NCBI GenBank assembly: GCA_964017235.1
Contig: OZ024931.1
Location: 141,114,033 to 141,178,032, forward strand
DNA: 64,000 nucleotides
Reading direction: 5' to 3'
From: Sabellastarte sp. h YS-2021
Taxonomy: Eukaryota > Annelida > Polychaeta > Sabellida > Sabellidae
In this document: one piece after another, positions 3,412 to 47,385 of the stretch
Layout: each line of letters begins with the position of its first letter
Position numbering within the stretch: position 1 is the first letter of the stretch
The notes under the pieces: generated by a model
The model's database searches: none
What the model was told of the DNA's origin: nothing
The model's input: the letters and a program-made list of their open reading frames with translations, nothing else
Made by a program: the position numbers and the translations under genes

Positions 3412-5233
3412 ATTGTATCCACCGGATGCTATCCGGTGGATACTATGGATTTGACTTCGTTACGCCTACGCCGCCGCCGCCACAGTGTGTAGAGAGATTT
3501 CACCGTTACCGCTCTAACGAAAAAAATATTATAGCTAGCCTTCTCAAATTTGCAGGATATATTCATAGCCATAAAATCTTGCCTGGGAATATTTTTGGCC
3601 TCATTTTGAAAAAACAAGATGGCCACCACAGGCGTTTTTCGACTTTAAACAAGGACTTTTGGTGGCCCTCTAGAGCAAAGGGTATTATAAGTAGAGATCT
3701 CAAATTCGCAGGATATGTTCCTCATTATAAACTCTTGACTGGGAACATTTCTTGCCTCATTTTGAAAAACAAGATGGCCGTCACAGGCATTTCTTTGCAG
3801 TCATGAAAAGTGCTTATATCTCCCTTATTATTGGTCCTAGAGGTTTGGGATGGTAAACCAACCTATAGGAAATCATGGGCTGGGAATCTTTTGGTGTGGT
3901 CAGATTTGACCTTGGACCCCTCCTTCAAGGTCAAACGAGGATAGCCAAACTTAAAAGTGCTTATAACTCGCTTATTATTGGTCCTAGAGGTTTGGGATGG
4001 TAAACCAACCTATTGGAAATCATGGGCCGGGAATCTTTTGGTGTGGTCGGATTTGACCTTGGACCCCTCCTTCAAGGTCAAACGAGGATAGCCAAACATA
4101 AAAGTGCTTATAACTCGCTTATTATTGGTCCTACAGGTTTGGGATGGTAAACCAACCTACAGGAAATCATGGGCCGGTAATCTTTTGATGTGGTCGGATT
4201 TGACCTTGGACCCCTCCTTCAAGGTCAAACGAGCATAGCCAAACTTAAAAGTGCTTATAACTCGCTTATTATTGGTCGTAGAGGTTTAGGATGGTGAACC
4301 AACCTATAGGAAATCATGGGCCGGGAATCTTTTGGTGTGGTGGGATTTGACCTTGGACCCCTCCTTCAAGGTCAAACGAGCATAGCCAAACTTAAAAGTG
4401 CTTATAACTCGCTTATTATTTGTCGTAGAGGTTTAGGATGGTAAACCAACCTATAGAAAATCATGGGCTGGTAATCTTTTGGTGTGGTTGGATTTGACCT
4501 TGGACCCCTCCTTCAAGGTCAAACGAGCATAGCCAAACTTAAAAGTGCTTATAACTCGCTTATTATTTGTCGTAGAGGTTTAGGATGGTAAACCAACCTA
4601 TAGGAAATCATGGGCCGGGAGTCTTTTGGTGTGGTCGGATTTGACCCTGGACCCCTCCTTCAAGGTCAAATGGGGATAGCCAAACTTAAAAGTGCTTATA
4701 ACCTGCTTATTATTGGTCCTAGAGGTTTGGGATGGTAAACCAACATATAGGAAATCATGGACTGGGAATCTATTGCTGTGGTCGAATTTGACCTTGGACC
4801 CCTCCTTCAAGGTAAAACGAGGATAGTACACAAAATCATGTGCTGGGAATGTATTGCTGTGGTCGGATTTGACCTTGGACCCTCCATCAAGGTCAAACAA
4901 GGATAGCCAAACTGAAAAGTGCTTACAACTCGCTTATTATTGGTCCTAGAGCTTTGGAATGGTAAACCAAAATCTAGGAAATCATGGGCTGGGAATCTTT
5001 TGGTGTGATCGGATTTGACCTTTGGCCCCTCTTTCAAGTTCAAATGAGGATTGCCAAAATTAGTGTTTATATTTTGCTTATTCGTATTCCTAGAGGTTTG
5101 CAGTGTCACACCAACCTATAGGAAATCATGGGCTAAGAATCTTTTGATATGGTCAGATTTCACCTTGGGCTTCTCCTTCAAGGTTAAGCGATGTTAGAAT
5201 GGCTTTGGTGAGTTTTCTTCTGGTGGATACAAT
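3412..5233. mobile_element. Hairpin-ended non-autonomous element with 147-bp satellite array, copy 1
   Basis: The ends are perfect 12-bp inverted repeats: ATTGTATCCACC at 3412-3423 and GGTGGATACAAT at 5222-5233. The left end also folds on itself: GTATCCACCGGAT (3415-3427) pairs with ATCCGGTGGATAC (3431-3443) across a 3-base loop. A GCC-rich stretch follows (about 3467-3483), then a two-copy repeat of about 160 bp containing a phrase with aacaagatggcc, then the 147-bp array. No protein is encoded; short open frames here are shadows. It sits between the gag and protease of a minus-strand Gypsy element. Architecture (terminal and subterminal inverted repeats, internal satellite) recalls Helentron-derived or pearl-type molluscan elements; that assignment is inference. 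Related copies lie at 54126 and 62403. Confidence 0.75.
3813..5190. repeat. 147-bp tandem satellite array
   Basis: Unit starts, anchored on the cttataactcgc phrase, fall at 3813, 3960, 4107, 4254, 4401, 4548 and 4695, giving six consecutive spacings of exactly 147 bp. They are followed by a shortened unit (next anchor 4922) and a diverged one (5066). Each unit carries TGACCTTGG and, about 10 bases further on, TTCAAGGTCA: an inverted pair of extended nuclear-receptor-type half-sites. The units stay similar to each other, so the array is young or homogenised. 147 bp is the length of nucleosome core DNA. Confidence 0.9.
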
Positions 5234-10284: not shown

Positions 10285-10825
10285 GTTTTTAGTTTTTAAT
10301 CAAGTTTATGGTTTTTAATAGAGTTTATGGTTTTTTTGAAAATCCCTACCAATTCTTTCTTACCTTAGAATACTCACTTTTCACAACACGTACTATAGGA
10401 GCAGCTATTTCATAGTGATGTGTCTTTTTGCTCCTTTCTTGATTTTCAAGGCGAATTGTACATTCGATTTTCAAGAACACCTAGCAAGTTTACCCCTAAA
10501 TCCGAATCTCATGGTGACATTGGGGTCATGAAGTTTATTTTCTTCTGTTTTGTGGATTTTTAAGTAAACATTACCTAAAGTGCTACACCCCATTCATGTA
10601 GTTTACAAGCCTTTGCCATTATACACATCCATTATACACTTAACTTTACTGTTTTTTTAGTTTTATTAATTTTTTATTTTTATTATTGTTATTTATGTAT
10701 ACATTTTTCTTGGTTGATAATTATTACACCATCAGTGTTTCTCTTACCAACTTTCCAGTATCCATAAATGATTGTTTCTGTTATTTGGTGTACACCACGT
10801 GCATTGACCAGGAGTATGTCAGCTT
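10285..10825. other. AT-rich stretch without a gene
   Basis: The region is rich in A and T with short runs such as repeats of agtttatggttttt near 10290-10330. I see no ORF with a recognisable motif and no repeat boundary. It ends at the target-site duplication of the LINE nest. Confidence 0.5.
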
Positions 10826-10840
10826 TCTAAGCCACTGTGT
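10826..10840. repeat. Left target-site duplication of outer LINE
   Basis: TCTAAGCCACTGTGT directly precedes the 5' end of the outer LINE copy and recurs exactly at 22453-22467 after its 3' tail. The first three bases could also be read as part of the tail repeat on the right side, so the duplication is 12-15 bp. Confidence 0.9.
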
Positions 10841-10920
10841 CCCCCTGTGGGTCCGGGGATGTAGAATAGGCCCAACGTATCCTCCTGCGTGTCGTAAGAG
10901 GCGACTAATTGGGGGCAGCC
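10841..10920 (+). promoter_or_regulatory. Conserved structured 5' end of LINE (outer copy)
   Basis: The first 80 bases can fold as a nested multi-branch structure. CCCCC (10841-10845) faces GGGGG (10911-10915). GGGTCC faces GGCCC, and GTCG faces CGAC around a TAAGAGG loop. The same 80 bases occur without change at 11453-11532. The strand order does not fit the HDV double pseudoknot. A role in RNA promoter activity or packaging is inference. Confidence 0.45.
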
Positions 10921-11437
10921 TGTTTGCCGTGGGTTGCGATCCGTGTCAGTGGAAGAGAGGGTCCTGGCTGTTGAGCCAATACTTTGTTGCGGCATTGAGG
11001 AGGCAATACACAGCTTTGGCCTCAATTTCACTTAGTCGGAAGGTTAAGATGGCCTGGCTTAATCAATCGGCTGGTAGTGCCAAGCCCTAATACTCCAAAT
11101 TAGTGATGGCTTGTTGTTTGTAATGGTTTATACTGTTGTACTTGATTGTTGTATTCTGATGGTGTTTGGTCTGTGCTTTGGTTTGGAGTATCTAGAAGGC
11201 GGCTGCTTAACAGGTCAATCAAGGTTCACTTTTTATGTGTTCTTTGAGTATATTGCTAATGTATCTCTGATATCAGTGTGCAGGGCTCAGCTCCACACTA
11301 TTATGATATCCCCTTATTGGGCTCGAAGGGTGGGTGGAGAGCATTGGCAACGAAAAATCTTTACTACATTATGGCAACTCAACACTCTCTACTGATTGAT
11401 AGGAAAAGATCTAGACCTGATATTACGACTACGGACT

Positions 11438-11451
11438 TTGATTCTGCTCAG
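11438..11451. repeat. Left target-site duplication of inner LINE
   Basis: TTGATTCTGCTCAG, inside ORF1 of the outer LINE, is repeated exactly at 17295-17308 just after the inner copy's TATC tail. It marks the nested insertion point. Confidence 0.92.
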
Positions 11452-11452
11452 G

Positions 11453-11532
11453 CCCCCTGTGGGTCCGGGGATGTAGAATAGGCCCAACGTATCCTCCTGC
11501 GTGTCGTAAGAGGCGACTAATTGGGGGCAGCC
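11453..11532 (+). promoter_or_regulatory. Conserved structured 5' end of LINE (inner copy)
   Basis: Same 80-base sequence as at the outer copy's 5' end, starting ccccctgtgggtccgggg. It stays identical while sequence further downstream in the 5' UTR differs, which argues for constraint or recent common origin. Confidence 0.45.
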
Positions 11533-11980
11533 TGTTTGCCGTGGGTTGCGATCCGTGTCAGTGGAAGAGAGGGTCCTGGCTGTTGAGCCAATTCTTTGTT
11601 GCGGCATTGAGGAGGCAATACACAGCTTTGGCCTCAATTTCACTTAGTCGGAAGGTTAAGATGGCCTGGCTTAATCAATCGGCTGGTAGTGCCAAGCCCT
11701 AGTGCTCCAAATTAGTGATGGCTTGTTGTTTCTAATGGTTTATACTGTTGTACTTGATTGTTGTATTCTGCTGGTGTTTGCTTTGTGCTTTTGTTTGGAG
11801 TATCTAGAAGGCGGCTGCTTAACAGGTCAATCAAGGTTCACTTTTGTGGTCTTTGAGTATATTGTTAATGTATCTCTGATATCAGTGTGCAGGGCTCAGC
11901 TCCACACTATTATGATATCCCCTTGTTGGGCTCGAAGGGTGGGTGGAGAGCATTGGCAATGAAATAATAACTACAACATT

Positions 11981-13213
11981 ATGGCTACTCAAAACCCTCT
12001 ACTGATGGATAGAAAAAGGACAAGAACTACGCTTGATATGACTACGAACTTGGATTCTCCTCAGATTTGTTCATGGCCAAGATTTCTATTAGTGAAAGGA
12101 ACAGATGATGAAAGACCCTTGTGTAGACTGTCCCCTTTTGCTGTAAATAAAGCCATTGTTGCAATACTAGGATCTGATCCCTTCAATATAAAAAAACTAA
12201 GAAATGGAAATATTTTAGTTGAAGTGGATAAAGAAGCACAAAGTAACAAACTGATGAAAACTACGAAACTGAATCTGACAATGGACAATGCCATCCCCAT
12301 TGAAGTGCAACCACACTATAGTCTCAATACCAAGAAAGGGGTCATTAGATGCCCAGACATTAAAGAATGCACTGATGAGGAAATACTAGAGGGCCTGAAA
12401 GATGAAGGTGTCATCAAGCTGGACAGGATAACTGTATTCCGAGATGGTAATAGGAAACAAACAGGAACTTTTATATTGACATTTCAAAGCCAAACCTTAC
12501 CAAAATATATCAGGGTGGGTTATTACAGGGTGGCTGTGTCACAGTTTATTCCTAATCCTGTCAGATGTTATAAATGTCAGAAATTTGGCCACACAAAATT
12601 CAACTGCAGGAAAAATGAAGTATGCAATAAATGTGGGCAAGAGGATCACACTGACTCTCAGGAATGTAAAAACGAAGCAAAATGTGTCAACTGCCAGGGA
12701 AATCATGCATCAAATGACAAATCATGTCCAAAATGGAAAGAAGAAAAGGATATTCAAAGGATAAAGGCAGAAAGAGGAATTTCATACACAGAAGCCAAGA
12801 AACAAATTGACATATTTAATTCAGTTAAAACAACGTATGCCCAAGCGGCTGCAGCAACCAAACCTGTGGTGAAAACTGCAAATGTAGAAACACAAACAGA
12901 AATGACATGGCCAGAAGGTACAAAACAACCAAAAAAGTATGCAGTTGAAAAACAGACAAGTAAAGTGACTAAAACTAGTTCATCAAGTCAGACAAGTGCA
13001 TCTCAAAATGACCCCATCAAATTGAAAATAAGTCAAAGCAAAGTATATTTGACCAAACAGCATAAGGGATCTAATGACCCTATTAAACAACACAATAAAT
13101 ATGATGTTTTAAGTGATAGTGACAGTGACATGAGTGTCGAAGAATCCCCAATCACAAGTTCACAAGGGCGGAGTGGTAATAAAAGTCTAAATAATGGAAC
13201 CAAACAAAAATAA
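11981..13213 (+). CDS. LINE ORF1 protein (gag-like, three CCHC knuckles), inner copy
   Basis: A 410-residue nucleic-acid-binding ORF1 protein that would coat LINE RNA into a ribonucleoprotein particle. An RNA-recognition-like segment with KLDRITVFRDGNRKQTGTFI and YYRVAVSQFIPNP occupies roughly residues 130-190. Three consecutive zinc knuckles follow: CYKCQKFGHTKFNC, CNKCGQEDHTDSQEC and CVNCQGNHASNDKSC (about 195-250). The C-terminal third is lysine-, serine- and threonine-rich and looks disordered, ending in an acidic serine cluster (SDSDSDMSVEESP). The frame is uninterrupted. The start at 11981 matches the ATG of the outer copy (11371). Its last 20 bases overlap the start of ORF2 in a different frame. 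Confidence 0.92.
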   Translation: MATQNPLLMDRKRTRTTLDMTTNLDSPQICSWPRFLLVKGTDDERPLCRLSPFAVNKAIVAILGSDPFNIKKLRNGNILVEVDKEAQSNKLMKTTKLNLTMDNAIPIEVQPHYSLNTKKGVIRCPDIKECTDEEILEGLKDEGVIKLDRITVFRDGNRKQTGTFILTFQSQTLPKYIRVGYYRVAVSQFIPNPVRCYKCQKFGHTKFNCRKNEVCNKCGQEDHTDSQECKNEAKCVNCQGNHASNDKSCPKWKEEKDIQRIKAERGISYTEAKKQIDIFNSVKTTYAQAAAATKPVVKTANVETQTEMTWPEGTKQPKKYAVEKQTSKVTKTSSSSQTSASQNDPIKLKISQSKVYLTKQHKGSNDPIKQHNKYDVLSDSDSDMSVEESPITSSQGRSGNKSLNNGTKQK

Positions 13214-16200
13214 AAGTATAATACAGTGGAACTGTCGTGGCTTTAGGCCAAATTTTGAAGAAATTAAAAATTTAATTTCCAATTTTAGACCCTACATTTT
13301 AGCATTGCAGGAAACTCATTTTAAAGAAACAGATAATGTAAATATTAGAGGATTTGATCATTATTTTAAAACTTGTATGTCTGAAGTAGATGGGAGAGCC
13401 ACTGGTGGCTGCTCTATTTTTGTTAAGAAAGGTATACCCCATGAGGTACTTGAGTTAGATACAGAACTGCAGGCAGTTGCTGTAAAAGTATCTCTACATA
13501 AAACTATAACTGTATGTAATGTATATATTCCACCACGTTTTAATGTTGCACAAACTGATCTTGAAAATCTAGTCAACCAATTACCTGCACCTTATTTATT
13601 TATTGGTGATTTTAATGCACATAGTGATTTGTGGGGTTGTTCCTCGTCTAATAGTTTAGGCTATAAGGTGGAACATCTTCTTGAATCCTCTGATATTTGT
13701 TTGCTTAATGATAAGTCATCTACCTATTTTCATCCTGCATCTGGTTCATTCACCTCAATAGATTTGTCTTTATGTTCTGCTTCTGTTTTTCTTGATTTTA
13801 CATGGCAGGTCCATTCTGATCAGTGTGGTAGTGACCATTTTCCTATTTTAATTGATATAGTTAAGAGTATGCCTAAGGACAATGTTCCACGTTGGAATCT
13901 TAAAAAGGCTGATTGGCCAAAATTCAAACTTCAGTGTTCTCTGGATATTAATAGACATAATTTTACTGACTCTACAGAAAAATTTCCTGCATTTTTAAAT
14001 AAGTTAAATGACATAGCAACAAAATGTGTGCCAAAGTCAACTGGACAGTCCACTGGTAGCTACAAACCATGGTTCAACAGTGAATGCAAAAAAGCTGTTA
14101 AGGCTCGTCAAAATGCAATGGATAAATGCCGTATAAATCCTACATCGGATAACATAAATGAATATAAAACCTGTCGAGCTAATGCTCGTAAAATAATTAA
14201 AGAAAATAAAAGGAAATCGTGGCATGAATATGTATCAAAACTAAATGTAAAGACACCAGCAAAGAAGGTATGGGAAATGATTAGGAAAATAAGTGGCAAA
14301 CAAAGTAACACCACAATACACCATCTGGAAAATAATGATGGGACAAAAATAACAGAAAGAGTTGATATAGCAAATAGGTTGGCCGAAGAAATCCGCAAGA
14401 ATTCTAGCAGCAACAATTACCGTACAGAGTTTCAAAAATATAAAGAGAAATCTGAAAAAGAACACTTGGATTTTGACACAGACAACTCTGAAAACTACAA
14501 TGTACCATTTACCATTAGAGAACTATGTGATGCTATGAATAAGTCTCATGACACAGCCACTGGTCCAGATGAGATCCATTATCAGCTGCTAAAACATTTA
14601 CCAAGAGACTCACTTATGGTGTTACTTGATATATTTAATGATATATGGGCTTCAGGTGAAATTCCTGAATGCTGGAAAGAGGCCACTGTAATACCTATTC
14701 CTAAACCAGGCAAAGACCCAAAAAACCCGTCCAATTATCGCCCCATTTCCCTGACGAGCTGTTTATGCAAAACCATGGAAAGAATGATTAATACTAGATT
14801 AGTTTGGTTCCTTGAGAAAAATAATATTTTAACAAAATATCAAAGTGGTTTTAGAAAAGGTCGAACTACAACAGACCAATTAATAAGACTTGAATCTTTT
14901 ATTAGAGATTCCTTTTTAAAAGGCAACCATGTAGTCTCTGTATTTTTTGATTTAGAAAAGGCCTACGATACAGTATGGAAGTATGGCGTTATAAGAGATC
15001 TACATAAAGTAGGCCTAAGGGGACGAATGCCCATGTTTATTCAGAATTTTTTATCAAACAGAGTTTTTAGAGTTCGTTTAGGATCTGTTTATTCAGACAT
15101 ACATGGGCAAGAGATGGGTGTTCCCCAGGGCAGCATCCTCTCTGTTACATTATTTATTTTAAAGATTAACAGTATTGCTGATGTGATTCCAGCTAGCTTT
15201 GAAAAGTCTCTTTTTGTTGATGATTTCTCAATCACTTGTTCTTCTAGAAATATGGCTTCAATAGAAAGGCAACTTCAATTGTGTTTGAATAAAGTAGAGA
15301 AATGGGCTGATGAAAATGGTTTTAGATTTTCTAAAACCAAAACTGTTTGCATGCATTTCTGTAATAAAAGAAAACTTCATCCAGACCCAACATTGACAAT
15401 ATATAATTCACAAATCCCTGTTGTTTCACAAACTAAGTTCCTTGGTGTTGTCTTTGACAGAAAACTTAATTTTAAGGCACATATAGATTATGTTCGCCAG
15501 AAATGTGAAAAAGCTATGAATCTACTGAAAGTAGTTGCCAAAATGGATTGGGGAGCAGATAGAAGTGTTTTAATGAGACTTTATCGTTCATTTGTTCGTT
15601 CCAGATTGGAATATGGTTGTGCTGTTTTTAGTTCTGCTCGTAAGTCTTATCTTAAGAAATTGGAACCCATTCAAAACCAGGGCCTAAGAATATGCCTGGG
15701 AGCCTTCAGGACCTCTCCAATGCAAAGCTTGTATGTAGAGGCAAATGAGCCACCCTTGTATTTAAGGTTTGATAAGTTATGTGTTCAATATGCTTTGAAA
15801 TTGAGAAGTAATCCTGACAATCCAGCTTATGATGTTGTTTTTAACCCCCAGTATTATGATCTGTATGATAAAAAACCATCTGCAATAAGATCTTTTGGGC
15901 ATCGTGTAGAGGAAGATTTGTCTGTTGTCTGTCCTCAGCTGGATTTAATTCAGACTGTGTCATTGCCAGATGACCCACCCTGGACTATACAGAAACCTCA
16001 CATAGACTTGTATCTAACCCATCAAAAGAAACACCTTGGTGATGATTGTCTTTTTCAAAGTCTATTTGCTCAGTTGAAAGGTTGTTATCCTGACCATAGG
16101 GTTATATATACTGATGGATCGAAGGCAGAAAATAGGGTTGCTGCAGCTGCTACATCTAATAACCTCAGTGCCCAGGTCAGGCTTCCTGGCAATGCTAGTA

Positions 16201-16898
16201 TATTCACTGCTGAATTACAGGCTCTTAAAATGGCTTTCAATATTGTGAAAAATTGTGATGGGAATCGTTTTATCATATTCACTGATTCTTTATCTAGTCT
16301 TCAAGCTCTTGATAGCAACAACTGTGATCATCCTTTTATTCAAGATATTTTAAAACTTTTTAATGATTGTTTGTTAGTGAATAAGAAAGTGGTTTTAGCT
16401 TGGGTTCCAAGTCACGTAGGCATAAAGGGCAATGAAAAAGCAGATGAGCTTGCCAAACAGGCCTTGAATTTTAATGTTTTAGACTTGAAAGTCCCCTATA
16501 CAGACTTGAAAGTGAATGTAAATAGTGTTTTTAAACAAAAGTGGCAAGCTCAATGGAATGCATGTCCTGATAACAAACTATTCCAAATAAACCCTACAGT
16601 AGGAGATTTTTATGTTTGGACGGGTTTATCTCGTAGGGAGGAAATAGTAATTACTCGAGCCCGTATAGGACACACCTATTTTACACACAGTTATCTGTTA
16701 AAAGGTGAAGATAAGCCCTGGTGCATTCCCTGTCATTGTCCTGATACAGTCAAGCATATACTATTAGACTGTATCGACCTACGTGATACTAGAATTAAGT
16801 ATTATAGAAACATAAATTCAATGAAAAATTTATTTAATGAAAATATTTTTAAGGTTATAAATTATTTAAAAGAAGTTGGTTTGTTCAAAAAGTTTTAA
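13194..16898 (+). CDS. LINE ORF2 polyprotein (endonuclease, RT, RNase H), inner copy
   Basis: A 1234-residue protein carrying the enzymes for target-primed reverse transcription. The APE-type endonuclease is at about 1-225: QETHF near residue 39, GDFNAH at 138-143 and SDH at 213-215. RT spans about 460-800, with FDLEKAYD at 585-592, MGVPQGS from 641 and active-site box FVDD at 674-677. The thumb motif FLGVVFDRKLNFKAHI follows. RNase H is at about 965-1090: YTDGSK with D974, TAEL with E1007, FTDS with D1031, and H1074/D1084 in the VPSH...EKADELA segment. A C-x2-C...H-x4-C knuckle ends it (1177-1193). All catalytic residues I looked for are present and there is no frame break, so this copy looks coding-competent. 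Confidence 0.95.
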   Translation: MEPNKNKSIIQWNCRGFRPNFEEIKNLISNFRPYILALQETHFKETDNVNIRGFDHYFKTCMSEVDGRATGGCSIFVKKGIPHEVLELDTELQAVAVKVSLHKTITVCNVYIPPRFNVAQTDLENLVNQLPAPYLFIGDFNAHSDLWGCSSSNSLGYKVEHLLESSDICLLNDKSSTYFHPASGSFTSIDLSLCSASVFLDFTWQVHSDQCGSDHFPILIDIVKSMPKDNVPRWNLKKADWPKFKLQCSLDINRHNFTDSTEKFPAFLNKLNDIATKCVPKSTGQSTGSYKPWFNSECKKAVKARQNAMDKCRINPTSDNINEYKTCRANARKIIKENKRKSWHEYVSKLNVKTPAKKVWEMIRKISGKQSNTTIHHLENNDGTKITERVDIANRLAEEIRKNSSSNNYRTEFQKYKEKSEKEHLDFDTDNSENYNVPFTIRELCDAMNKSHDTATGPDEIHYQLLKHLPRDSLMVLLDIFNDIWASGEIPECWKEATVIPIPKPGKDPKNPSNYRPISLTSCLCKTMERMINTRLVWFLEKNNILTKYQSGFRKGRTTTDQLIRLESFIRDSFLKGNHVVSVFFDLEKAYDTVWKYGVIRDLHKVGLRGRMPMFIQNFLSNRVFRVRLGSVYSDIHGQEMGVPQGSILSVTLFILKINSIADVIPASFEKSLFVDDFSITCSSRNMASIERQLQLCLNKVEKWADENGFRFSKTKTVCMHFCNKRKLHPDPTLTIYNSQIPVVSQTKFLGVVFDRKLNFKAHIDYVRQKCEKAMNLLKVVAKMDWGADRSVLMRLYRSFVRSRLEYGCAVFSSARKSYLKKLEPIQNQGLRICLGAFRTSPMQSLYVEANEPPLYLRFDKLCVQYALKLRSNPDNPAYDVVFNPQYYDLYDKKPSAIRSFGHRVEEDLSVVCPQLDLIQTVSLPDDPPWTIQKPHIDLYLTHQKKHLGDDCLFQSLFAQLKGCYPDHRVIYTDGSKAENRVAAAATSNNLSAQVRLPGNASIFTAELQALKMAFNIVKNCDGNRFIIFTDSLSSLQALDSNNCDHPFIQDILKLFNDCLLVNKKVVLAWVPSHVGIKGNEKADELAKQALNFNVLDLKVPYTDLKVNVNSVFKQKWQAQWNACPDNKLFQINPTVGDFYVWTGLSRREEIVITRARIGHTYFTHSYLLKGEDKPWCIPCHCPDTVKHILLDCIDLRDTRIKYYRNINSMKNLFNENIFKVINYLKEVGLFKKF

Positions 16899-17295
16899 TT
16901 AATTTAAATTGTTCTTTGTTTTCATGTTAACTTATTCAGTAAAATCTAGTCTTGCATAATATTGTGATAGTTATATTGTGGTTTTAAGTCGTACTTTTTC
17001 TTGTTATGGTTTTCTAGTCTTTCTTTAAAATTATATTGTAATATTTAAACTCTTTCATTATTTCTATGTTTTATCTTTTTTGTTGTTGTTCTTTTTTACC
17101 TTTGTAGTATACTTATCTTTTGTGTTTTCTAGTCAACTTTTATGCTTTTGTGATTTGTTTTTTTCTCCAATCATTGTGTGTTTGTATATATTTGTTGGTT
17201 GTAAATATTAATTAGTATATTTATTATTTTAATGTAGTGCAGTATGACACATTTGTGTTTTTGCACTGAAATTTTAACTATCTATCTATCTATCT
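16899..17295 (+). other. LINE 3' UTR and TATC tail, inner copy
   Basis: An AT-rich untranslated region of about 380 bases ends in a short TATC repeat (about 17278-17295) in place of poly(A). It is closely related to the outer copy's 3' UTR at 22059-22455. Short tandem-repeat tails are usual for I-type LINEs. Confidence 0.85.
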
Positions 17296-17308
17296 TGATT
17301 CTGCTCAG
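17295..17308. repeat. Right target-site duplication of inner LINE
   Basis: Exact second copy of TTGATTCTGCTCAG. ORF1 of the outer LINE resumes in frame right after it at 17309. Confidence 0.92.
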
Positions 17309-18457
17309 ATTTGCTCATGGCCACGTTTCCTGCTTATTAAAGGTACAAATGATGAAAGACCTTTATACAAACTGTCACCATTTGCTGTTAACAAAGCCAT
17401 TGTTGCTATACTTGGTTCTGATCCATTTAACATAAAGAAGTTAAGGAATGGAAGCATTTTGGTGGAAGTGGACAAGGAAACACAGAGCCAGAAATTACTG
17501 AAAACTACAAAATTGAATCTGACAATGGACAATGCTATCCCAATCGATGTTTCACCACATTACAGTTTAAACACTAAGAAAGGGGTCATTAGATGCCCAG
17601 ACATAAAAGACTGTACTGATGACGAAATATTAGAAGGCCTGAAAACTGAAGGTGTCATCAAACTAGACAGGATTTCGGTATTTAGAGATGGACAGAGAAA
17701 ACCAACAGGCACCTTTATATTGACATTTCAAAGCCAGACCTTACCTAAATACATCAGGGTGGGTTACTATAGGGTGGCTGTGTCACAATTTATCCCAAAT
17801 CCTGTGAGGTGCTACAAGTGTCAAAAGTTTGGTCATACTAAATTCAACTGCAGAAAGAATGAAGTTTGCACTAAATGTGGGCAAGAAGATCACACAGACC
17901 ATCAAGAATGCAAGAATGAAGCAAAATGTGTCAATTGCCAAGGTAAGCATGAATCAAATAATAAAGAATGTCCAAAATGGAAAGAAGAAAAGGAAATTCA
18001 AAGAATCAAGACAGAAAGAGGAATTTCATACATAGAAGCGAAGAAACAGATGGACATATTTAATTCTGTGAAAACAACATATGCCCAGGCAGCTGCAGCA
18101 ACCAAACCTGTGGTGAAAACAGCAACAGTGGAAACACAAACAGAAATGACTTGGCCAGAAGGCACAAAACAACCAAAAAAGTGTGCAGTTGAAAAACAGA
18201 CACCTAAAGTGACTAAAACAAGTTCATCAAGTCAGACAAGTGCATCTCAAAATGACCCTATTAAACTGAAAATAAGTCAAAGCAAAGTATATTTGATGAA
18301 ACAACATAAGGGATCTAATGACCCTATTAAACAATACAACAAATATGATGTTTTGAGTGATAGTGACAGTGAAATGAGTGTCGAAGAATCCCCAATCACA
18401 AGTTCACAAGGGCGGAGTGGTAATAAAAGTGTAAATAATGGAACCAAACAAAAATAA
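17309..18457 (+). pseudogene. LINE ORF1, outer copy, interrupted by nested insertion
   Basis: The first 27 codons are at 11371-11451; the frame continues from 17309 without a stop to 18457. Zinc knuckles CYKCQKFGHTKFNC, CTKCGQEDHTDHQEC and CVNCQGKHESNNKEC are kept. The only disruption is the 5.8-kb inner element plus duplication. An internal ATG-less start is the reason a shorter frame appears to begin at 17459. In its present form the message is broken, so I class it as a disrupted gene. Confidence 0.88.
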
Positions 18458-21400
18458 AAGTATAATACAGTGGAACTGTCGTGGCTTTAGGCCAAATTTT
18501 GAAGAAATTAAAAATTTAATTTCCAATTTTAGACCCTACATTTTAGCATTGCAGGAAACTCATTTTAAAGATTCAGATAATGTAAATATTAGAGGATTTG
18601 ATCATTATTTTAAAACTTGTATGTCTGAAGTAGATGGGAGAGCCACTGGTGGCTGCTCTATTTTTGTTAAGAAAGGTATACCCCATGAGGTACTTGAGTT
18701 AGATACAGAACTGCAGGCAGTTGCTGTAAAAGTATCTCTACATAAAACTATAACTGTATGTAATGTATATATTCCACCACGTTTTAATGTTGCACAAAGT
18801 GATCTTGATAATCTAGTCAACCAGTTACCTGCACCTTTTCTATTTATTGGAGATTTTAATGCACATAGTGATTTATGGGGTTGTTCCTCGTCTAATAGTT
18901 TAGGCTATAAGGTGGAACATCTTCTTGAATCCTCTGATATTTGTTTACTTAATGATAAGTCACCTACCTACTTTCATCCTGCATCAGGTTCATTCACCTC
19001 AATAGATTTGTCTTTATGTTCTGCATCTGTTTTTCTTGATTTTACATGGCAGGTCCATTCTGATCAGTGTGGTAGTGACCATTTTCCTATTTTAATTGAT
19101 ATAGTTAAGAGTATGCCTAAGGACAATGTTCCTCGTTGGAATCTTAAAAAGGCTGATTGGCCAAAATTCAAACTTCAGTGTTCTCTGGATATTAATAGGC
19201 ATAATTTTACTGACATAACAGAAAAGTTTCCTGCATTTTTAGATAAGTTAAAGGACATAGCAACAAAATGTGTGCCAAAGTCAACTGGACAGTCCACTGG
19301 TAGCTACAAACCATGGTTCAACAGTGAATGCAAAAAAGCTGTTAAAGCTCGTCAAAATGCAATGGATAAATGCCGTATAAATCCTACATCAGATAACATA
19401 AATGAATATAAAAACTGTCGAGCCAATGCTCGTAAAATAATTAAAGAAAATAAAAGGAAATCATGGCATGAATATGTATCAAAACTAAATGTAAAGACAC
19501 CAGCAAAGAAGGTATGGGAAATGATAAGGAAAATAAGTGGCAAACAAAGTAACACCACAATACACCATCTGGAAAATAATGATGGGACAAAAATAACAGA
19601 AAGAGTTGATATAGCAAATAGGTTGGCCAAAGAAATCCGCAAGAATTCTAGCAGCAACAATTACCGTACAGAGTTTCAAAAATATAAAGAGAAATCTGAA
19701 AAAGAACACTTGGATTTTGACACAGACAACTCTGAAAACTACAATGTACCATTTACCATTAGAGAACTATGTGATGCTATGAATAAGTCTCATGACACAG
19801 CCACTGGTCCAGATGAGATCCATTATCAGCTGCTAAAACATCTACCAAGAGACTCACTTATGGTGTTACTTGATATATTTAATGATATATGGGCTTCAGG
19901 TGAAATTCCTGAATGCTGGAAAGAGGCCACTGTAATACCTATTTCTAAACCAGGCAAAGACCCAAAAAACCCGTACAATTACCGCCCCATATCTCTGACG
20001 AGCTGTTTATGCAAAACCATGGAAAGAATGATTAATACTAGATTAGTTTGGTTCCTCGAAAAAAATAATATTTTATCAAAATATCAAAGTGGTTTTAGAA
20101 AAGGTCGAACTACAACAGACCAATTAATAAGGCTTGAATCTTTTATTAGAGATTCCTTTTTAAAAGGCAACCATGTAGTCTCTGTATTTTTTGATTTAGA
20201 AAAAGCCTACGACACAGTATGGAAGTATGGTGTAATAAGAGATCTACATAAAGTAGGCCTAAGGGGGCGAATGCCCATGTTTATTCAGAATTTTTTATTA
20301 AACCGAGTTTTTAGAGTTCGTTTAGGATCTATTTATTCAGATATGTGTGAACAAGAAATGGGTGTCCCTCAAGGCAGTATCCTATCTGTTACATTATTTA
20401 TTTTAAAGATCAACAGTATTGCTGATGTGATTCCAACTAGCTTTGAAAAGTCTCTTTTTGTTGATGATTTCTCAATCACTTGTTCTTCTAGAAATATGGC
20501 TTCAATAGAAAGGCAACTTCAGTTATGTTTGAATAAGATAGAAAGATGGGCTGATGAAAATGGTTTTAAATTTTCTAAAACCAAAACTGTTTGCATGCAT
20601 TTCTGTAATAAAAGAAAACTTCATCCAGACCCAACATTGACAATATATAATTCACAAATCCCTGTTGTTTCACAAACTAAGTTCCTTGGTGTTATATTTG
20701 ATTGGGATTGGGGAGCAGATAGGAGTGTTTTATTGAGACTTTATCGTTCATTTGTTCGTTCTAGATTGGAATATGGTTGTGCTGTTTTTAGTTCTGCTCG
20801 AAAGTCATATCTTAAGAAATTGGAACCCATTCAAAACCAGGGCTTAAGAATATGCCTGGGAGCCTTCAGGACTTCTCCAATGCAAAGCTTGTATCTAGAG
20901 GCAAATGAACCACCCTTATATTTAAGGTTTGATAAGTTATGTATTCAGTATGCTTTGAAGTTGAGATGTAATCCTGACAATCCAGCTTACGATGTTGTTT
21001 TTAACCCCCAATTTTATGATCTTTATGACAAGAAACCATCTGCAATTAGATCTTTTGGGCATCGTGTAGAGGAAGATTTGTCTGCTGTCTGTCCTCAGCT
21101 GGATTTAATTCAGACTGTGTCATTGCCAGATGACCCACCCTGGACTATACAGAAACCTCACATAGACTTCTATCTCACCCATCAAAAGAAACATCTTGGT
21201 GATGATTGTCTTTTTCAAAGTCTATTTGCTGAGTTGAAAGGTTGTTATCCTGACCATAGGGCTATATATACTGATGGATCAAAAACAGAAAATAAGGTTG
21301 CTGCAGCTGCTACATGTAATAACCTCAGTGCCCAAGTCAGACTTCCTGGCAATGCTAGTATATTTACAGCTGAATTACAGGCTCTTAAAATGGCTTTTAA

Positions 21401-22058
21401 TATTGTGAAAAATTGTGATGGGGATCTTTTTATCATATTCACTGATTCTTTATCTAGTCTCCAAGCTCTTGATAGCAACAACTGTGATCATCCTTTCATT
21501 CAAGATATTTTAAAACTTTTTAATGATTGTTTGTCAGTGAATAAGAAAGTTGTTTTAGCTTGGGTTCCAAGTCACGTAGGCATAAAGGGCAATGAAAAAG
21601 CAGATGAGCTTGCCAAACAGGCCTTGAATTTTAATGTTTTAGACTTGAAAGTCCCCTATACAGACTTGAAAGTAAATGTAAATAGTGTTTTTAAACAAAA
21701 GTGGCAAGCTCAATGGAATGCGTGTCCTGATAATAAACTATTCCAAATAAACCCTACAGTAGGAGATTTTTATGTTTGGACGGGTTTATCTCGTAGGGAG
21801 GAAATAGTCATAACTCGAGCCCGTATAGGACACACTTATTTCACCCATAGTTATCTGTTGAAAGGTGAAGATATGCCCTGGTGCATTCCATGTCATTGTC
21901 CCGATACAGTCAAGCATATATTATTAGACTGTATTGACCTACGTGACACTAGAATTAAATATTACAGAAATATAAACTCAATGAAAAATTTATTTAATGA
22001 AAATATTTTTAATGTTATCAATTATTTAAAAGAAGTTGCTTTGTTCAAAAAGTTTTAA
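18438..22058 (+). CDS. LINE ORF2 polyprotein, outer copy, with RT thumb deletion
   Basis: A 1206-residue open frame collinear with the inner copy's ORF2. Endonuclease motifs (QETHF, GDFNAH, SDH), RT box FVDD and RNase H residues (YTDGSK, TAEL, FTDS, WVPSH...EKADELA) are all present. Compared with the inner copy, 28 residues net are missing after GVIFD: the FDRKLNFKAHI...VVAKM stretch in the RT thumb (equivalent to about 15459-15545) is replaced by a single W. The junction reads gattgggattgg, a 6-base direct repeat, which suggests slippage or microhomology. The frame is preserved, but the enzyme probably lacks normal RT function. The start overlaps ORF1's end by 20 bases, as in the inner copy. 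Confidence 0.9.
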   Translation: MEPNKNKSIIQWNCRGFRPNFEEIKNLISNFRPYILALQETHFKDSDNVNIRGFDHYFKTCMSEVDGRATGGCSIFVKKGIPHEVLELDTELQAVAVKVSLHKTITVCNVYIPPRFNVAQSDLDNLVNQLPAPFLFIGDFNAHSDLWGCSSSNSLGYKVEHLLESSDICLLNDKSPTYFHPASGSFTSIDLSLCSASVFLDFTWQVHSDQCGSDHFPILIDIVKSMPKDNVPRWNLKKADWPKFKLQCSLDINRHNFTDITEKFPAFLDKLKDIATKCVPKSTGQSTGSYKPWFNSECKKAVKARQNAMDKCRINPTSDNINEYKNCRANARKIIKENKRKSWHEYVSKLNVKTPAKKVWEMIRKISGKQSNTTIHHLENNDGTKITERVDIANRLAKEIRKNSSSNNYRTEFQKYKEKSEKEHLDFDTDNSENYNVPFTIRELCDAMNKSHDTATGPDEIHYQLLKHLPRDSLMVLLDIFNDIWASGEIPECWKEATVIPISKPGKDPKNPYNYRPISLTSCLCKTMERMINTRLVWFLEKNNILSKYQSGFRKGRTTTDQLIRLESFIRDSFLKGNHVVSVFFDLEKAYDTVWKYGVIRDLHKVGLRGRMPMFIQNFLLNRVFRVRLGSIYSDMCEQEMGVPQGSILSVTLFILKINSIADVIPTSFEKSLFVDDFSITCSSRNMASIERQLQLCLNKIERWADENGFKFSKTKTVCMHFCNKRKLHPDPTLTIYNSQIPVVSQTKFLGVIFDWDWGADRSVLLRLYRSFVRSRLEYGCAVFSSARKSYLKKLEPIQNQGLRICLGAFRTSPMQSLYLEANEPPLYLRFDKLCIQYALKLRCNPDNPAYDVVFNPQFYDLYDKKPSAIRSFGHRVEEDLSAVCPQLDLIQTVSLPDDPPWTIQKPHIDFYLTHQKKHLGDDCLFQSLFAELKGCYPDHRAIYTDGSKTENKVAAAATCNNLSAQVRLPGNASIFTAELQALKMAFNIVKNCDGDLFIIFTDSLSSLQALDSNNCDHPFIQDILKLFNDCLSVNKKVVLAWVPSHVGIKGNEKADELAKQALNFNVLDLKVPYTDLKVNVNSVFKQKWQAQWNACPDNKLFQINPTVGDFYVWTGLSRREEIVITRARIGHTYFTHSYLLKGEDMPWCIPCHCPDTVKHILLDCIDLRDTRIKYYRNINSMKNLFNENIFNVINYLKEVALFKKF

Positions 22059-22455
22059 TTAATTTATTTTGTTCTCTGTTCCTCGTGTTAATTTATTCTG
22101 TAAAATCTAGTCTTGTATAATATTGTGATAGTTATATTTTGGTTTTTTATTCATTCTTTTCTTGTTTATGTTTTTCTAGTCTCTCTATAAAATTATTTTG
22201 TAATAGTTAAACTCCATTATTATTTTTATGTTTTATCTTATTTGATGTTCTCTTTTACTTTTGTTTTATACTTATCTTTTTTGTCTTCTAGTCAACTTTA
22301 ATAATCTTGTGATTTGTTTTTTTGCCAATTATTGTGTATTTGTATATATTTGTTTGTTGTAAATATTAATTAGTGTATTTATTATTTTATTTTTTAGTGC
22401 AGTATGACACACTTGTGTTTTTGCACTTAAATTTTAATTATCTATCTATCTATCT
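22059..22455 (+). other. LINE 3' UTR and TATC tail, outer copy
   Basis: AT-rich 3' UTR related to 16899-17295, ending in a TATC repeat at about 22439-22455. The next bases are the outer duplication (22453-22467). Confidence 0.85.
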
Positions 22456-22467
22456 AAGCCACTGTGT
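22453..22467. repeat. Right target-site duplication of outer LINE
   Basis: Exact second copy of TCTAAGCCACTGTGT seen at 10826-10840. It closes the nested LINE unit. Confidence 0.9.
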
Positions 22468-22704: not shown

Positions 22705-25640
22705 TCATTGCGCTTTTTCTCCACAATATGCTGTTTTAAAATAATGAGTTTTTAGTTTCTTTTTGAAGATGTCAAATGGAAGTTCAATGTTCCTGATATC
22801 ATCTGGCAGTTCATTCCAATACTTTGGTGCTACAACACTGAAGGCACGGTCACCCATAGAGACAAGTTTTGATCTTTTTTCTTGTAGCATGTATGATTTT
22901 CTTGCCAATCTTGTGGTGCGTTGATGTTGCTGGTAGTTAAGCATTGATGTCAAATATGATGGTGCCTGTCGATTCAAACTCTTATATACTAGTAGATTTA
23001 TTTTAAATTTGATCCGAAACCTAACAGGCAACCAGTGGAGCTGATGCAGGTGAACCGATATAGAATCATGTTTTTTGACATTCAAAACTATCCTGGCAGC
23101 CCAATTTTGTACTTTCTGCAACTTCTGGATAAGATATTGTGGGAGTTCAGCTAGGAGAGAGTTGCAATAGTCCAATCTGGAAGATATGAGTGACTGTACT
23201 ATTGTGTGTGCAGCAGACTTAGTCAGGTAAGGTCTTATTTGAATGATGGACCTAAGGTGACCATAACAGGATCTGCATATGGCATTTACTTGTTGCCTGA
23301 GTGATAGGTCTTGGTCAATGATTACACCAAGGTTTCTGACACTTGTGCTTGGCTTTATGTCAATACCAACCACATTTAATGAATCAATAATGACTTTGGA
23401 GCGCTGTTTTCCAGTGCCAGCAATTAAGAACTCTGTCTTTTCATCATTTAGCTTGAGCCGGTTATTAGACATCCAGTTGCTTATTTCAGATGTACACAAT
23501 TGGAGTTGTTCTGCAGTTTGTTTTTGGTTTTCAAAATTACTTGGGTCGATTGATTTGTAAAGCTGTGTGTCATCAGCATACATGTGGAAAAGTATGTGAA
23601 ACGTTCTGATGATGACACCAAGAGGTAATGTATATTTGCAGTAGAGATCAGGCCCAAGACCTGATCCCTGAGGCACACAGCATTCTAGAACCTTTTTGTG
23701 AGATTCACAGTCATCAACAACTACTGATTGAGTTCTTCCTGTTAAATAAGTTCTAAACCAGTCTAAAGCTTTGTCTTCAATTCGGAACATTTTCTCAAGT
23801 CGGTGCAGCAAAATACAGTGATCAACAGTGTCAAATGCAGCTGATAAATCTAGAAAACCCATAAGTATTACTTTTTGATTATCTGCTTCCAGTAGGTCGT
23901 TCATGATTTTGATCAGAGCAGTCTCAGTGCTGTGGTGGCATCTGTATGCTGACTGTAGATTTTCAGAGAGATTATGACTGTTTGTGTGGTCAAGTAATTG
24001 GATTGAGACTGCTTTTTCAATAATCTTGGACAGAAAAGGCAAGTTAGACACTGGCCTAAAATTTTTGAAAGTAGGATCCGCATCTGTCTTTTTTGGCAGA
24101 GGGGTAACAACTGCGTGTTTGAACCCCTCTGGCATTTCACCTTGTATGAGTGACATGTTTATTACTTTGCTAATACTGGGTAACAGTATTTCAATACAGT
24201 CCTTCAGCAATGGTGTTGGGATTGGATCAAGTCTACATGATTTTGGTGCTGCTGATAAGATTAATTTTCTAATATCTTCATTGCTAAGAGGCTGGAAAGA
24301 AGTCAGTGGTGTTACATCAACAGTTTTGTCATACTCATTGAATTTACTGGTTGATGGAAATTTAGCTCTGATTTTCATGATCTTTTCTTCAAAATAATCA
24401 CTGAATTCATTTGCCAACTGAGTCTTTGATGAGTGTTCAGGATAGATAGTTGGATCATTGTCCTGCTTCAGCTTTTTAATAATTTGAAACAGTTGTTTCT
24501 GATTTGATTTATTTTTTTCGATAATTTCACTATAGTATGCCACTTTTGAACTGTGAAGCACCTTTGAATATGTTTTCCTCAATTCCACCATTACTCTATA
24601 ACTTTCATCCATGTGGTCTTTTCTCCATTTCCTTTCTGCTTGTCGGAATTTTTGCTTAGCTGTACGAATGTTTTCATTGTACCAAGGATTAATGTTCCTA
24701 TTGCCAGTCTTTTTCACTCTTAATGGAGCATGCTTATCTAGAAGCTGAGATAGGCAGCTGTTGTATTGATTCACTAACTCATTCAGCTCAGTTTTTGGTT
24801 TTGTGACAATATCTGAGTTTAGAAGGTCCTGCTTGAATCTGGTTACATCAATCTTATTCAAAGGTCTGTAAGATTTTGGCGACTCTTTATGCTTGTGATT
24901 TGAAGAGTTGAGTTGGAATACAACTGATGCATGGTCAGACAGGTAAGTTGAGATCTTAGGTGTATCATGTATCAAAGACTCAGAGTTTCTTGTTATTATC
25001 AAATCAAGCATATGATTTGCATGTTTGGATGTGGCAACTGATGCATGGTCAGACAGGTAAGTTGAGATCTTAGGTGTATCATGTATCAAAGACTCAGAGT
25101 TTCTTGTTATTATCAAATCAAGCATATGATTTGCATGTTTGGATGTGGCATCAGTGACATGCTGCTTCAAGCCAAATTCATCAAGAAGGTCTTTCATGTT
25201 TTTAACAGAATAACTATCAATGTTTTCCATGTGAAAGTTAAAATCACCCATAATCAAAAGTTTTTCTTTCTGTAGTACCATTTTACTGAGTAATTCTGAG
25301 AATTCTTGAAAGAACTGGCCTGTAGTGATATTTTCTGTATTTGGTGGCCGGTATACAACACAAACTCTTAACTTGGTGTTGCTATTTGTTAAAACACAAG
25401 AGATGTACTCAAAAGAGGTAAATGTTTCTCCTGAATCTAATTTGGGGCCCCATTCTTGCTTGCACAGCAAGGCTACTCCACCACCATACCTACCTTTCCT
25501 GTCAATACATTTCAATATGTATCCAGTGGGCGTTAATTGTTGTTTGACAACACCTGATACAGCAACATTGAATAAGCAGTTAAATGGTGAATAATGGATA
25601 TATTTAGATGCTCTGTGAGTTTTGTGGTTAACTCTTATGG
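22705..25640 (-). pseudogene. CR1/L2-like ORF2: endonuclease (part) and reverse transcriptase
   Basis: An uninterrupted frame of almost 1000 codons. Residues before GYILKCIDRKGRYGGGVAL are not genuine, because the true N-terminus is inverted. Endonuclease motifs include VYRPPNTENI, LLIMGDFNFH and YLSDHASV. A 38-residue block around the SDH motif is duplicated in tandem. RT motifs are complete: FRPVSNLPFLSKIIEKAV, QSAYRCHHSTETAL, FLDLSAAFDTVDH, VPQGSGLGPDLY and active site MYADDTQLY. The C-terminus (LQKVQNWAARIVL, LHWLPVRFRIKFK) is typical of CR1/L2. There is no RNase H. The RT looks intact, but the inversion and the endonuclease duplication leave no normal full-length protein. Confidence 0.9.
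24923..25150 (-). repeat. Perfect 114-bp tandem duplication in LINE endonuclease
   Basis: Unit 1 is 24923-25036 and unit 2 is 25037-25150. Reading base by base I saw no difference between them. The length is 38 codons, so the frame is kept, and the SDH catalytic motif is present twice. Confidence 0.92.
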
Positions 25641-25970
25641 GGTAGTATGGATACCACAACTTGCCAAAAACTGGCCTATACCAGGGGGGAGTTAATGGCA
25701 ATCAGAAATCAATGTGTCGGCCTGAGACTACCACAAGCTGATGTTTCACTCGTTAAGAACTTGACTTTAAACTCAGTGACCCAGACAAGAAGGGGAGTGA
25801 GAGGTGGTTACAGATCATCTAAATCAAAGACCTCTGTGTGTTATTTCAATGCCCAGTCAGTCAGAAATAAACTTTTACACATAAACGATCACTTGTCAGA
25901 TAAAAACTTTAGTATTATAGGGATTGTAGAGACCTGGCTTATGGAAAAGGATCATGAAACAATATCACAA
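25641..25970 (+). mobile_element. CR1/L2-like LINE, inverted 5' segment
   Basis: The plus strand encodes the start of the same endonuclease domain (CYFNAQSVRNKLLHINDHLS, then FSIIGIVETWLMEKD), preceded by an ORF2 leader (GELMAIRNQCVGLRLPQ). It stops just where the minus-strand segment takes up (GYILKC). Orientation is opposite to the main body. Breakpoints are approximate (within about 60 bases). Confidence 0.8.
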
Positions 25971-44341: not shown

Positions 44342-45625
44342 CTGTCAGCTGATTTGTCAGTCAACTAACATTTCTAAATCACTCTGCGGTGTACATGTAT
44401 GTGTTCGCGTCCACATGAACAACTTCTCCAAAAGTACAAGGCTCAGAGACATGCTGTTTCTTTTCAAAGATACCTTATCTATTGAGGATGAAAAATTGTT
44501 CAAAACATGCAGATCTGTGGGTTCGTCTGTTCCCAAGAACCAGTACAACTGGGGTACCCCCACCTAAAGTATGAAAATTTCAACACTTTATCACACGTTT
44601 CTCATATTCTATTTGAATAATTTTTTTATGTATTAAAATTCATTAAATCATAACTAAATCACTTATAACTTGGAAGTTATTGCATTTAGAGCATTTTGTT
44701 AAAGTATGTTATTCAGCTACTTTTTCAACAACTACAACATGGTTCGTTGGGAGTCCGTCCCAAAAGCTAAGTTAGTAATAGCCACTTTCTTACTGTTCAG
44801 TACCTTCCATTATGAGAAAAATCACTTGTAACTTGAAAACTATTGCATTTAGAGAATTATGTATAAATATATTATTCAGCTACTTTAGGGTCGGCTATAA
44901 CATAAGAAAATTGCACACCTGTAGGTCATTGCATAGCTGAGCAACAACTACTTTCAAGTTCTAACTGTTGAGTAAATCGCTTGTAACTTGAAAACTATTG
45001 CATTTAGAGAATATTCTTTAATATTTTATCCAGCTGGGTCAGCTATAACATAGTAAAATTGCACACCTGTAGCTCATTGTATAGATCAGCTATAGCTTCT
45101 TTCAGGTTTTCACTGTTGAGTAAATCAGTTGTAACTTGAAAACTCTTTGTTTAGAGAATTTTGTTTGAATGTTATTCACCTACTTTTGGTCAGCTCTAAA
45201 AAAGTAAACTTGCTGACCCGAAACTTATTGCGTGGCTGAGCAATAGCTACATTTAGGTTTTCACTGTTGAGGAAATCAGTTGCAACTCGAAAAGTATTAC
45301 ATTTTGAGAATTTTCTTTAAATATGTTATTCAGCCTTTTGGGTCAGCTATGGTATAGTGAAATTGCAGACCTGTAGCTCATTGTATAGCTGAGCAATAGC
45401 TTCTTTCAGGTTCTCACTCTTGAGTAAATTAGTTGTAACTTGAAAACTATTGCATGTACGGTAATGTTTTTCACCTACTGTTTACACCTTAATAGTTAAG
45501 TTTGTACTTTACTTCTGAATACCATTTGTAGTGCATAACTTTTGTGTCCTTTTCTGCATTCACTTCTACTCTGAAACTTAAAACACATAGCTGACACAGA
45601 GGCCGTCCAAGGGCACTGCTTGTTT
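44342..45625. mobile_element. Hairpin-ended element with ~155-bp array, short copy
   Basis: In ECHS1 intron 6. The head starts tgtcagctgatttgtcagtc and shares cactctgcgg and a taccttatctat/gatgaaaaattgttca block with heads at 52142 and 60401. About six units of a 155-bp repeat (gtaacttgaaaactattgca, then gtcagctataacatag) follow. The end has a hairpin-forming ggccgtccaagggc. It lacks the inserted 147-bp-array element seen in the other two copies, so it represents the simpler ancestral form. Confidence 0.7.
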
Positions 45626-46769: not shown

Positions 46770-47385
46770 TTACCCCACAGCCCTTAAAGGCTGTCGGGGT
46801 ATTGTTTTCACCCATGGTGTCCGGATGGGCGGGCGGCGGGAAAAAGTTTGTCCGGGCTGTATCTCAGAAACCGTAAGGTGTAGGAAGTTCATACTTGGTA
46901 GGGACATTGGTTGGGGGGTGTAGGTGTGCAGCGTCATGGTCTGACCTTGATTTGACCTTTGACCTTGCCGTAGTGACCTTGACCTATAAAATCTTGTCCG
47001 GGCTATATCTCTCTCGGAAACCGTAAGGTGTAGGAAGTTGATACTTAGTAGGGGTATTGGTTAGGGAATGTAGGTGTGCAATGTCATGGTCTGACCTTGA
47101 TTTCACCTTTGACCTTGCCGTAGTGACCTTGACCTATAAAATCTTGTCCGGGCAATATTTCGGAAACCGTAAGGTGTAGGAAGTTGATACTTAGTAGGGA
47201 TATTGGTTAGGGGGTGTAGGTGTGCAACGTCATGGTCTGACCTTGATTTCACCTTTGACCTTGTCGTAGTGACCTTGACCTATAAAATCTTGTCCGGGCT
47301 ATATCTCGGAAACTGTAAGGTGTAGGAAGTTGATACTTGGTAGGGACATTGGTTAGGGGGTGTAAGTGTGCAACGTTATAGTTAA
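46770..47385. mobile_element. Hairpin-headed element with 146-bp array in ECHS1 intron 6
   Basis: The head reads taccccacagccctt, then aaaggctgtcggggta, an inverted pair. A G/C-rich stretch follows (gggcgggcggcggg), then four tandem units anchored on ccgtaaggtgtaggaagtt at 46871, 47021, 47167 and 47311 (spacings 150, 146, 146; the first contains an extra ctct). Each unit holds several TGACCTT or TTGACCT motifs. The right end is truncated. Confidence 0.75.

Follow-up and report, generated by a model that had tools for sequence, protein, structure and literature searches.

At positions 10826–22467 of the window, i.e., the whole 64,000-nt stretch of DNA analysed here, one LINE lies inside another. 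This arrangement almost certainly goes back to two successive target-primed reverse transcription insertions of one young two-ORF LINE family, the inner copy having landed in ORF1 of the outer one. A copy of the lineage termed class A below would have inserted first, at TCTAAGCCACTGTGT, followed later by a complete copy of a sister lineage, which would have entered in the same direction at TTGATTCTGCTCAG, after codon 27 of the outer ORF1. The outer copy would also have lost 84 nt in frame, either before or after nesting, and the family's own enzymes presumably did the inserting. As such, the kind of event is known—an ordinary two-ORF element and target-primed reverse transcription; the family, in the copies read, looks unusually clumped, self-interrupting, and built of swapped parts.

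The nest documents two recent insertions cleanly and in order and lends itself well to use as a PCR marker; annotation pipelines could misread its double 5′ UTR as a tandem promoter. The family may offer a natural setting in which to ask whether LINEs are able to prefer their own surroundings, and how active LINE lineages swap 5′ UTR, ORF1, reverse transcriptase, and 3′ recognition modules. The mosaic relationship of the lineages, the private 84-nt deletion, and the recurrence of self-nesting are additions to the preliminary description of this DNA.

Architecture of the Nested LINE Pair

The components of the nest are compiled in Table 1. Two same-direction copies with a repeated 5′ UTR, as described beforehand, were found at 10841 and 11453, and a perfect duplication encloses everything (15 of 15 positions identical, 10826–10840 versus 22453–22467; TCTAAGCCACTGTGT). 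The 14 bases at the break in the outer ORF1 (TTGATTCTGCTCAG) had been said to recur downstream of the inner copy, and they do so without a mismatch (14/14, 11438–11451 versus 17295–17308). By a crude estimate, which assumes equal bases and 75 combinations of offset and length, the chance of each perfect duplication is about 3e-7 or less.

Table 1. Features of the nested LINE pair (positions in the window)
Feature	Position	Strand	Remark
Outer LINE, split copy	10841–11451 + 17309–22452	+	
Left outer target-site duplication	10826–10840	+	TCTAAGCCACTGTGT; last T possibly the element's own
Outer LINE 5′ UTR	10841–11370	+	ORF1 start at element position 531 in 38/39 relatives
Outer ORF1, first 27 codons	11371–11451	+	residues as in P0126, by eye
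Left inner target-site duplication	11438–11451	+	TTGATTCTGCTCAG; exact junction unique in genome
Inner LINE, complete	11452–17294	+	
Inner ORF1, 410 aa, putative CCHC zinc knuckles	11981–13213	+	zf-CCHC E 0.0084, short of the Pfam threshold
Inner ORF2, 1234 aa: endonuclease, reverse transcriptase, RNase H	13194–16898	+	
Inner 3′-terminal hairpin	17236–17267	+	
Inner (ATCT)n tail	17279–17294	+	
Right inner target-site duplication	17295–17308	+	exact junction unique in genome
Outer ORF1 remainder, 382 codons, open	17309–18457	+	
Outer ORF2, 1206 aa	18438–22058	+	in-frame 84-nt deletion at 20704/20705
Outer 3′ UTR	22059–22452	+	hairpin 22396–22427 and (ATCT)n tail
Right outer target-site duplication	22453–22467	+	

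The outer ORF1 resumes in frame behind the inner copy, in agreement with the preliminary description: from its ATG at 11371, the stretch to 11451 comprises exactly 27 codons, codon 28 starts at 17309, and the frame translated from 17309 alone is open for 382 aa, to 18457. The two reading frames of the inner copy overlap by 20 nt. Its end had been correctly placed at 17294; its start, given as 11453, was moved to 11452, because a T precedes the CCCCC start in 39 of 39 other copies, where the inner copy has a G. In consequence, the first base of the outer element may lie one position earlier, within what is counted as the duplication.

For comparison, a search with the outer 5′ region returned 41 rows (the best 40 of 1234 candidates scored), two of which are the window's own copies; the other 39 copies were fetched. 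The inner target site is uninterrupted in all 39 fetched outer-lineage copies (38 exact, one—L029—with a single substitution), while the left and the right inner junction each have one exact match in the 1.79-Gb genome, both of them in the window. Target-site duplications of 11–18 bp (mode 14) are present in 40 of 41 copies, i.e., the fetched ones plus inner and outer copy, L020 being the one without; in this count, the search was limited to the expected 3′ region and the outer row was set from the known coordinates, and unconfined it yields longer self-matches for L029, L042, and L045. A length of 14 bp occurs in 20 copies, 15 bp in nine, and 13 bp in seven, with 11, 12, 16, and 18 bp in one copy each; hence, 36 of 40 duplications measure 13–15 bp, and the 14 and 15 bp of the pair are the family mode. 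A short-repeat 3′ tail, either (ATCT)n or (ACTTA)n, marks the insertion end of the copies.

Alternative Explanations for the Arrangement

The preliminary description had claimed that the inner copy landed in ORF1 of the outer one and that the first 5′ UTR is not a tandem promoter of the next copy. Nesting is borne out by the nested duplications, a tail for each copy, the unique junctions, and the uninterrupted relatives. The contrary reading, to which we give practically no credence, is that of a tandem array or tandem-promoter family feature, with the 5′ UTR doubled in every copy or copies following one another head to tail, like the LINE arrays of telomeres. Two same-direction 5′ UTRs 612 bp apart do occur in the window, and stretches of 5′ UTR lie close together at three further loci on C5, C6, and C18, as judged from search matches. 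However, the data speak against a family-wide order of 5′ UTR, ORF1, and 5′ UTR: the exact left junction is single and common to no other locus, the ORF1 start runs through the nest site in every fetched copy, the duplications are nested, and the breakpoints at the C5, C6, and C18 loci differ. Unequal recombination or segmental duplication between neighbouring copies might also place two elements in tandem, the more so as copies of the family cluster, 16 of the 20 pairs within 100 kb have the same direction, and L020 is possibly such a rearrangement. Yet this process would not leave 14 perfectly duplicated bp directly flanking the inner 5′ end and tail within an otherwise continuous ORF1, nor a second perfect pair around everything, and we hold it to be extremely improbable as the origin of the nest. 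Perfect duplications at both levels likewise make an artificial join in the assembly very unlikely.

A further alternative leaves the nesting itself untouched and concerns the likeness of the two 5′ UTRs, which could be due to gene conversion after nesting instead of an older exchange. Over their first 290 bp the two agree at 98.6%, and their ORF1 sequences are much less alike, which would be in keeping with conversion, but 16 copies elsewhere equal the 5′ score of the outer copy and three come within 4 bits of that of the inner one; neither was thus overwritten here, and only a slim chance is left to conversion within the nest. Two successive insertions remain our preferred reading.

Coding Capacity, Affiliation, and Age

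Above the respective cut-offs, ORF2 contains the domains Exo_endo_phos, Exo_endo_phos_2, RVT_1, and RNase_H, and among proteins of solved structure it is closest in sequence to LINE-1 ORF2 proteins. For ORF1, zf-CCHC matches two stretches with an E value of about 0.008 and 16.6 bits as against a cut-off of 20.8, and three CCHC-like motifs are discernible by eye. Most likely, the family has an I-superfamily architecture and is Nimb-like: LINEs of the Nimb/Nimbus (BgI) type, to which it is likened by architecture, combine an ORF1 with CCHC-like knuckles, putative in the present family, and an ORF2 that, as here, comprises EEP endonuclease, reverse transcriptase, and RNase H. One study (PMC10294476) names Nimb and Ingi as the only I-superfamily clades in molluscs, bar a single unknown clade found in an octopus genome, and Nimbus and Ingi in gastropods are treated in another (PMC11203168). 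No known RNA family or ribozyme was detected at gathering score in the window or, up to an E value of 1, in 10800–12000, where the 5′ UTRs reside, and the 5′-terminal fold is no better than that of shuffled sequences (z 0.50 and 0.74).

Both ORFs are full-length (ORF1, 408–409 aa; ORF2, 1234–1237 aa) in 24 of the 39 fetched copies. Two of the copies, L028 and L031, exceed the rest by about 0.4 kb in end-to-end length, which suggests internal insertions. Among the best 40 of 1234 candidates scored, 16 other copies equal the score of the outer 5′ region itself, and among the best 40 of 1232 scored with the inner 5′ region, three others are within 4 bits of its own score; the element is young and probably still mobile. 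Compared with 11 class-A copies, the outer copy has 0 private substitutions at 611 sites and 8 at 5144 sites and is, thus, very young; the class-A comparison copies have 3 to 15 private substitutions each. Also private is its in-frame deletion in ORF2, just past the reverse transcriptase domain, since the inner copy and all 39 fetched copies retain the 84 nt. Both insertions can be regarded as recent on the evidence of their sequences, and given the youth of both copies, the pair would be expected to differ between individuals. The interrupted outer copy is presumably dead.

Mosaic Lineages within the Family

The preliminary description had called for an alignment of the two copies, which, carried out piece by piece and unjoined, identifies them as relatives with windows ranging from 79% to 100% identity. 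In 100-column windows, identity is 95–100% up to 11340, drops to 79% across the start of ORF1, and recovers to 93% at its end; ORF2 is mostly 93–99% identical (lowest 150-column window, 90%), and the 3′ end 86–92%. Purifying selection was considered as the cause of this uneven divergence and rejected because fourfold sites are uneven as well: those differing between inner and outer copy amount to 16/33, 11/28, 10/34, and 2/24 in successive ORF1 windows as against 1/52, 3/55, 3/44, 4/53, 4/52, 0/2, 5/54, 5/51, and 7/44 in ORF2 windows.

By eye, the 39 fetched copies were grouped into 11 of class A (outer-like throughout), 19 of class B, and six of class C, with three (L021, L025, and L042) standing apart; a site was taken as diagnostic if one letter occurs in at least 90% of each class. 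All 285 sites that are diagnostic between classes A and B lie at or beyond position 1724; ORF2 starts at 1741. The outer copy is of the A type at 283 of 284 diagnostic sites. A single clean switch is seen in L025, whose 22 diagnostic sites up to 2766 are all A and whose 263 from 2896 onward are all B. Class-C copies follow B to about 4926–4962 and then A, the last B site being 4926 in L048, 4956 in L047, and 4962 in L015; in L036, L039, and L044, one A site (4956) precedes the last B site (4962), and stray B sites occur at the extreme end of L015 (one) and L048 (two). Given the variable switch sites, class C may comprise more than one event. L047 contains an extra A stretch of eight sites (3825–3972), which needs two switches, and L021 is of the B type with a mixed stretch at 4623–4962. 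One to three stray sites are found in 11 of the 30 class-A and class-B copies, and L042 and the inner copy conform to no simple mosaic pattern.

Because each of the six class-C copies has its own duplication, they are separate insertions, whose source was probably one or more recombinant masters. Taken from its sequences, the family is young and modular, with a shared 5′ UTR and ORF2, a diverged ORF1, and swapped 3′ ends. Template switching between co-packaged RNAs in reverse transcription would best explain the mosaic, with gene conversion as another possible source, above all for the double switch of L047. In the mosaic L1 families of the mouse, lineages likewise arise by block exchange, including at the junction of ORF2 and 3′ UTR, and PMC3600994 discusses three mechanisms for it. 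Unlike in mouse L1, lineages that show no diagnostic site in their first 1723 bp here bear different 3′ UTRs and tails with one common hairpin.

3′ Ends and the Terminal Hairpin

Class-A copies end in (ATCT)n, class-B copies in (ACTTA)n. Of 16 anchorable class-B copies, 15 lack any BLAST hit to the outer 3′ UTR, and the hit of the remaining one, L020, falls in its flank; in a forced alignment, the class-B copies and L042 are 64–66% like L011 over the final full window, where nothing but 3′ UTR is compared.

A two-part hairpin precedes the tail in 41 of 41 copies and occurs in four sequence variants, with compensatory changes at two pairs (columns 1–32, AU/GC; columns 6–27, AU/UA). On the four variant rows, which are in effect two lineages, pairing holds in 100% of the cells—a value equalled by 14 of 500 shuffles—and sliding the partners drops it to 27–50%. 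For the number of pairs changed on both sides (two), 345 of 500 shuffles do equally well, and for the number of pair types 406 do, so that covariation, with few rows, lends the hairpin modest support. The inner 3′ end folds better than shuffled sequences (z −2.86; equalled by 1 of 200); for the outer one the difference is less clear (z −1.07; 29 of 200).

By analogy, the hairpin likely serves recognition by the element's reverse transcriptase. The type case of a stringent LINE with a 3′ stem-loop recognised by the reverse transcriptase is UnaL2. LINEs of the stringent type, such as UnaL2 and zebrafish LINEs, likewise end in a 3′-terminal hairpin followed by short tail repeats; they belong to another LINE group than the present family. 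Recognition of 3′ tail RNA by a LINE protein is the subject of PMC4176376.

Self-Nesting and Clustering of Family Copies

Comparison of 400 bp of upstream and about 530 bp of downstream flank from each of the 39 copies against three family copies yielded five clear self-nests, one probable, and one complex case, the window's pair coming in addition. In the clear nests, both flanks lie in one relative with agreeing coordinates and a duplication; L024 and L025 are in opposite, L026, L042, and L045 in the same direction. The interrupted relatives range from 99–100% (L024) to about 88–91% identity (L026), with the right flank of L045 about 68% like L011, and the targets are scattered along the element. 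L036 probably sits in an older 3′ end, about 40 bp beside the insertion being unaligned. The complex case is L020 (G000:C4:44345857-44352657), a complete class-B copy lacking a detectable duplication, where an A-type 3′ piece ends at 5720 on the left and an A-type piece starts at 4762 on the right. A rearrangement, an exceptionally long duplication, or truncation of a neighbour may underlie it, and it shows that not every neighbouring arrangement in the family is a simple nest.

In the inner-lineage search (43 rows; best 40 of 1232 candidates scored), the matches place a 5′ UTR against a piece of another in the same direction at C5:132639669 and C6:119762815 (a 44-bp piece), and at C18:86653353 a 5′ UTR starts 1.13 kb after another, again in the same direction. 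As their breakpoints differ from one another and from those in the window, separate insertions are suggested for these loci, not a family feature. If the 1232 candidates, a lower bound, were all 5′ ends, 0.016 insertions into the first 612 bp would be expected among 39 copies. The probability of five or more nests among 39 depends on the share of the genome taken up by the family, being 4e-5 at 1%, 0.001 at 2%, 0.04 at 5%, and 0.35 at 10%. Plant LTR retrotransposon families are described in PMC6911290 as nesting in one another; mutual nesting is common to both systems, but those are LTR elements with another integration chemistry. Among the matches listed in our literature searches, no paper dealt with self-nesting or clustering of the present LINE family, from which we do not claim absence from the literature.

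The copies are clumped along the genome as well, with the reservation that scoring picked out the copies most similar to two queries and did not sample the family at random. A neighbour within 100 kb is found for 28 of 78 copies (both searches, the window's two left out), compared with 0.63 on average and at most 6 in 1000 uniform placements, for which the length of C18 was assumed. Of pairs, 18 fall within 50 kb where uniform placement predicts 0.17, 20 within 100 kb (0.34 predicted), and 25 within 1 Mb (3.4 predicted), and the 39 fetched copies alone provide five pairs within 50 kb versus 0.041 expected, two of them involving L020. Segmental duplication as the cause is unsupported for the pairs L011/L012, L034/L035, and L018/L045, whose fetched flanks are unlike and whose duplications and lineages differ; the probability of three or more such pairs is about 1e-5, the three having been chosen after seeing the data. 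It is possible that falsely duplicated haplotypes in the assembly inflate the clustering among copies from the inner-lineage search.

Uneven tolerance of insertions, i.e., gene-poor and repeat-rich islands, accounts for the clustering as well as targeting does, and self-nesting together with clustering may reflect targeting, tolerance, or sampling. That the family inserts preferentially in islands of its own copies of about 50 kb, a sizeable share of new copies landing inside relatives, is a tentative proposal which we consider rather unlikely. If true, lineages would meet in such islands, which could sustain the block-swapping by which new recombinant masters with interchangeable 3′ ends keep arising.

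Two local observations concern the surroundings of copies. At G000:C3:44199346-44217764, three inner-lineage 5′ ends occur in the same direction in 18 kb, two of them 6086 bp apart, possibly as a local array. In L011, L013, L027, L029, and L032, the upstream and downstream flanks are 90–99% alike beyond the duplication, and these copies seem to lie inside tandem arrays.

Other Repeats in the Window

No further pieces of the nested LINE family were found in the 64,000-nt window beyond the pair. The window also contains several tandem arrays and three other stretches with domains of the reverse transcriptase type. A different LINE at 22705–25701 (−), with endonuclease and reverse transcriptase and with no RNase H match, ends 238 bp downstream of the nest, and its reading frame includes a perfect 114-bp tandem duplication (24921–25150). 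The other two stretches are a reading frame with a reverse transcriptase domain at 39641–40648 (+) and one with an RNase H-like domain of reverse transcriptases at 1617–2264 (−). Tandem arrays with periods of about 145–155 bp and at least three consensus units extend over 3806–5184, 44819–45455, 46848–47376, 52722–55430, and 60956–63016.
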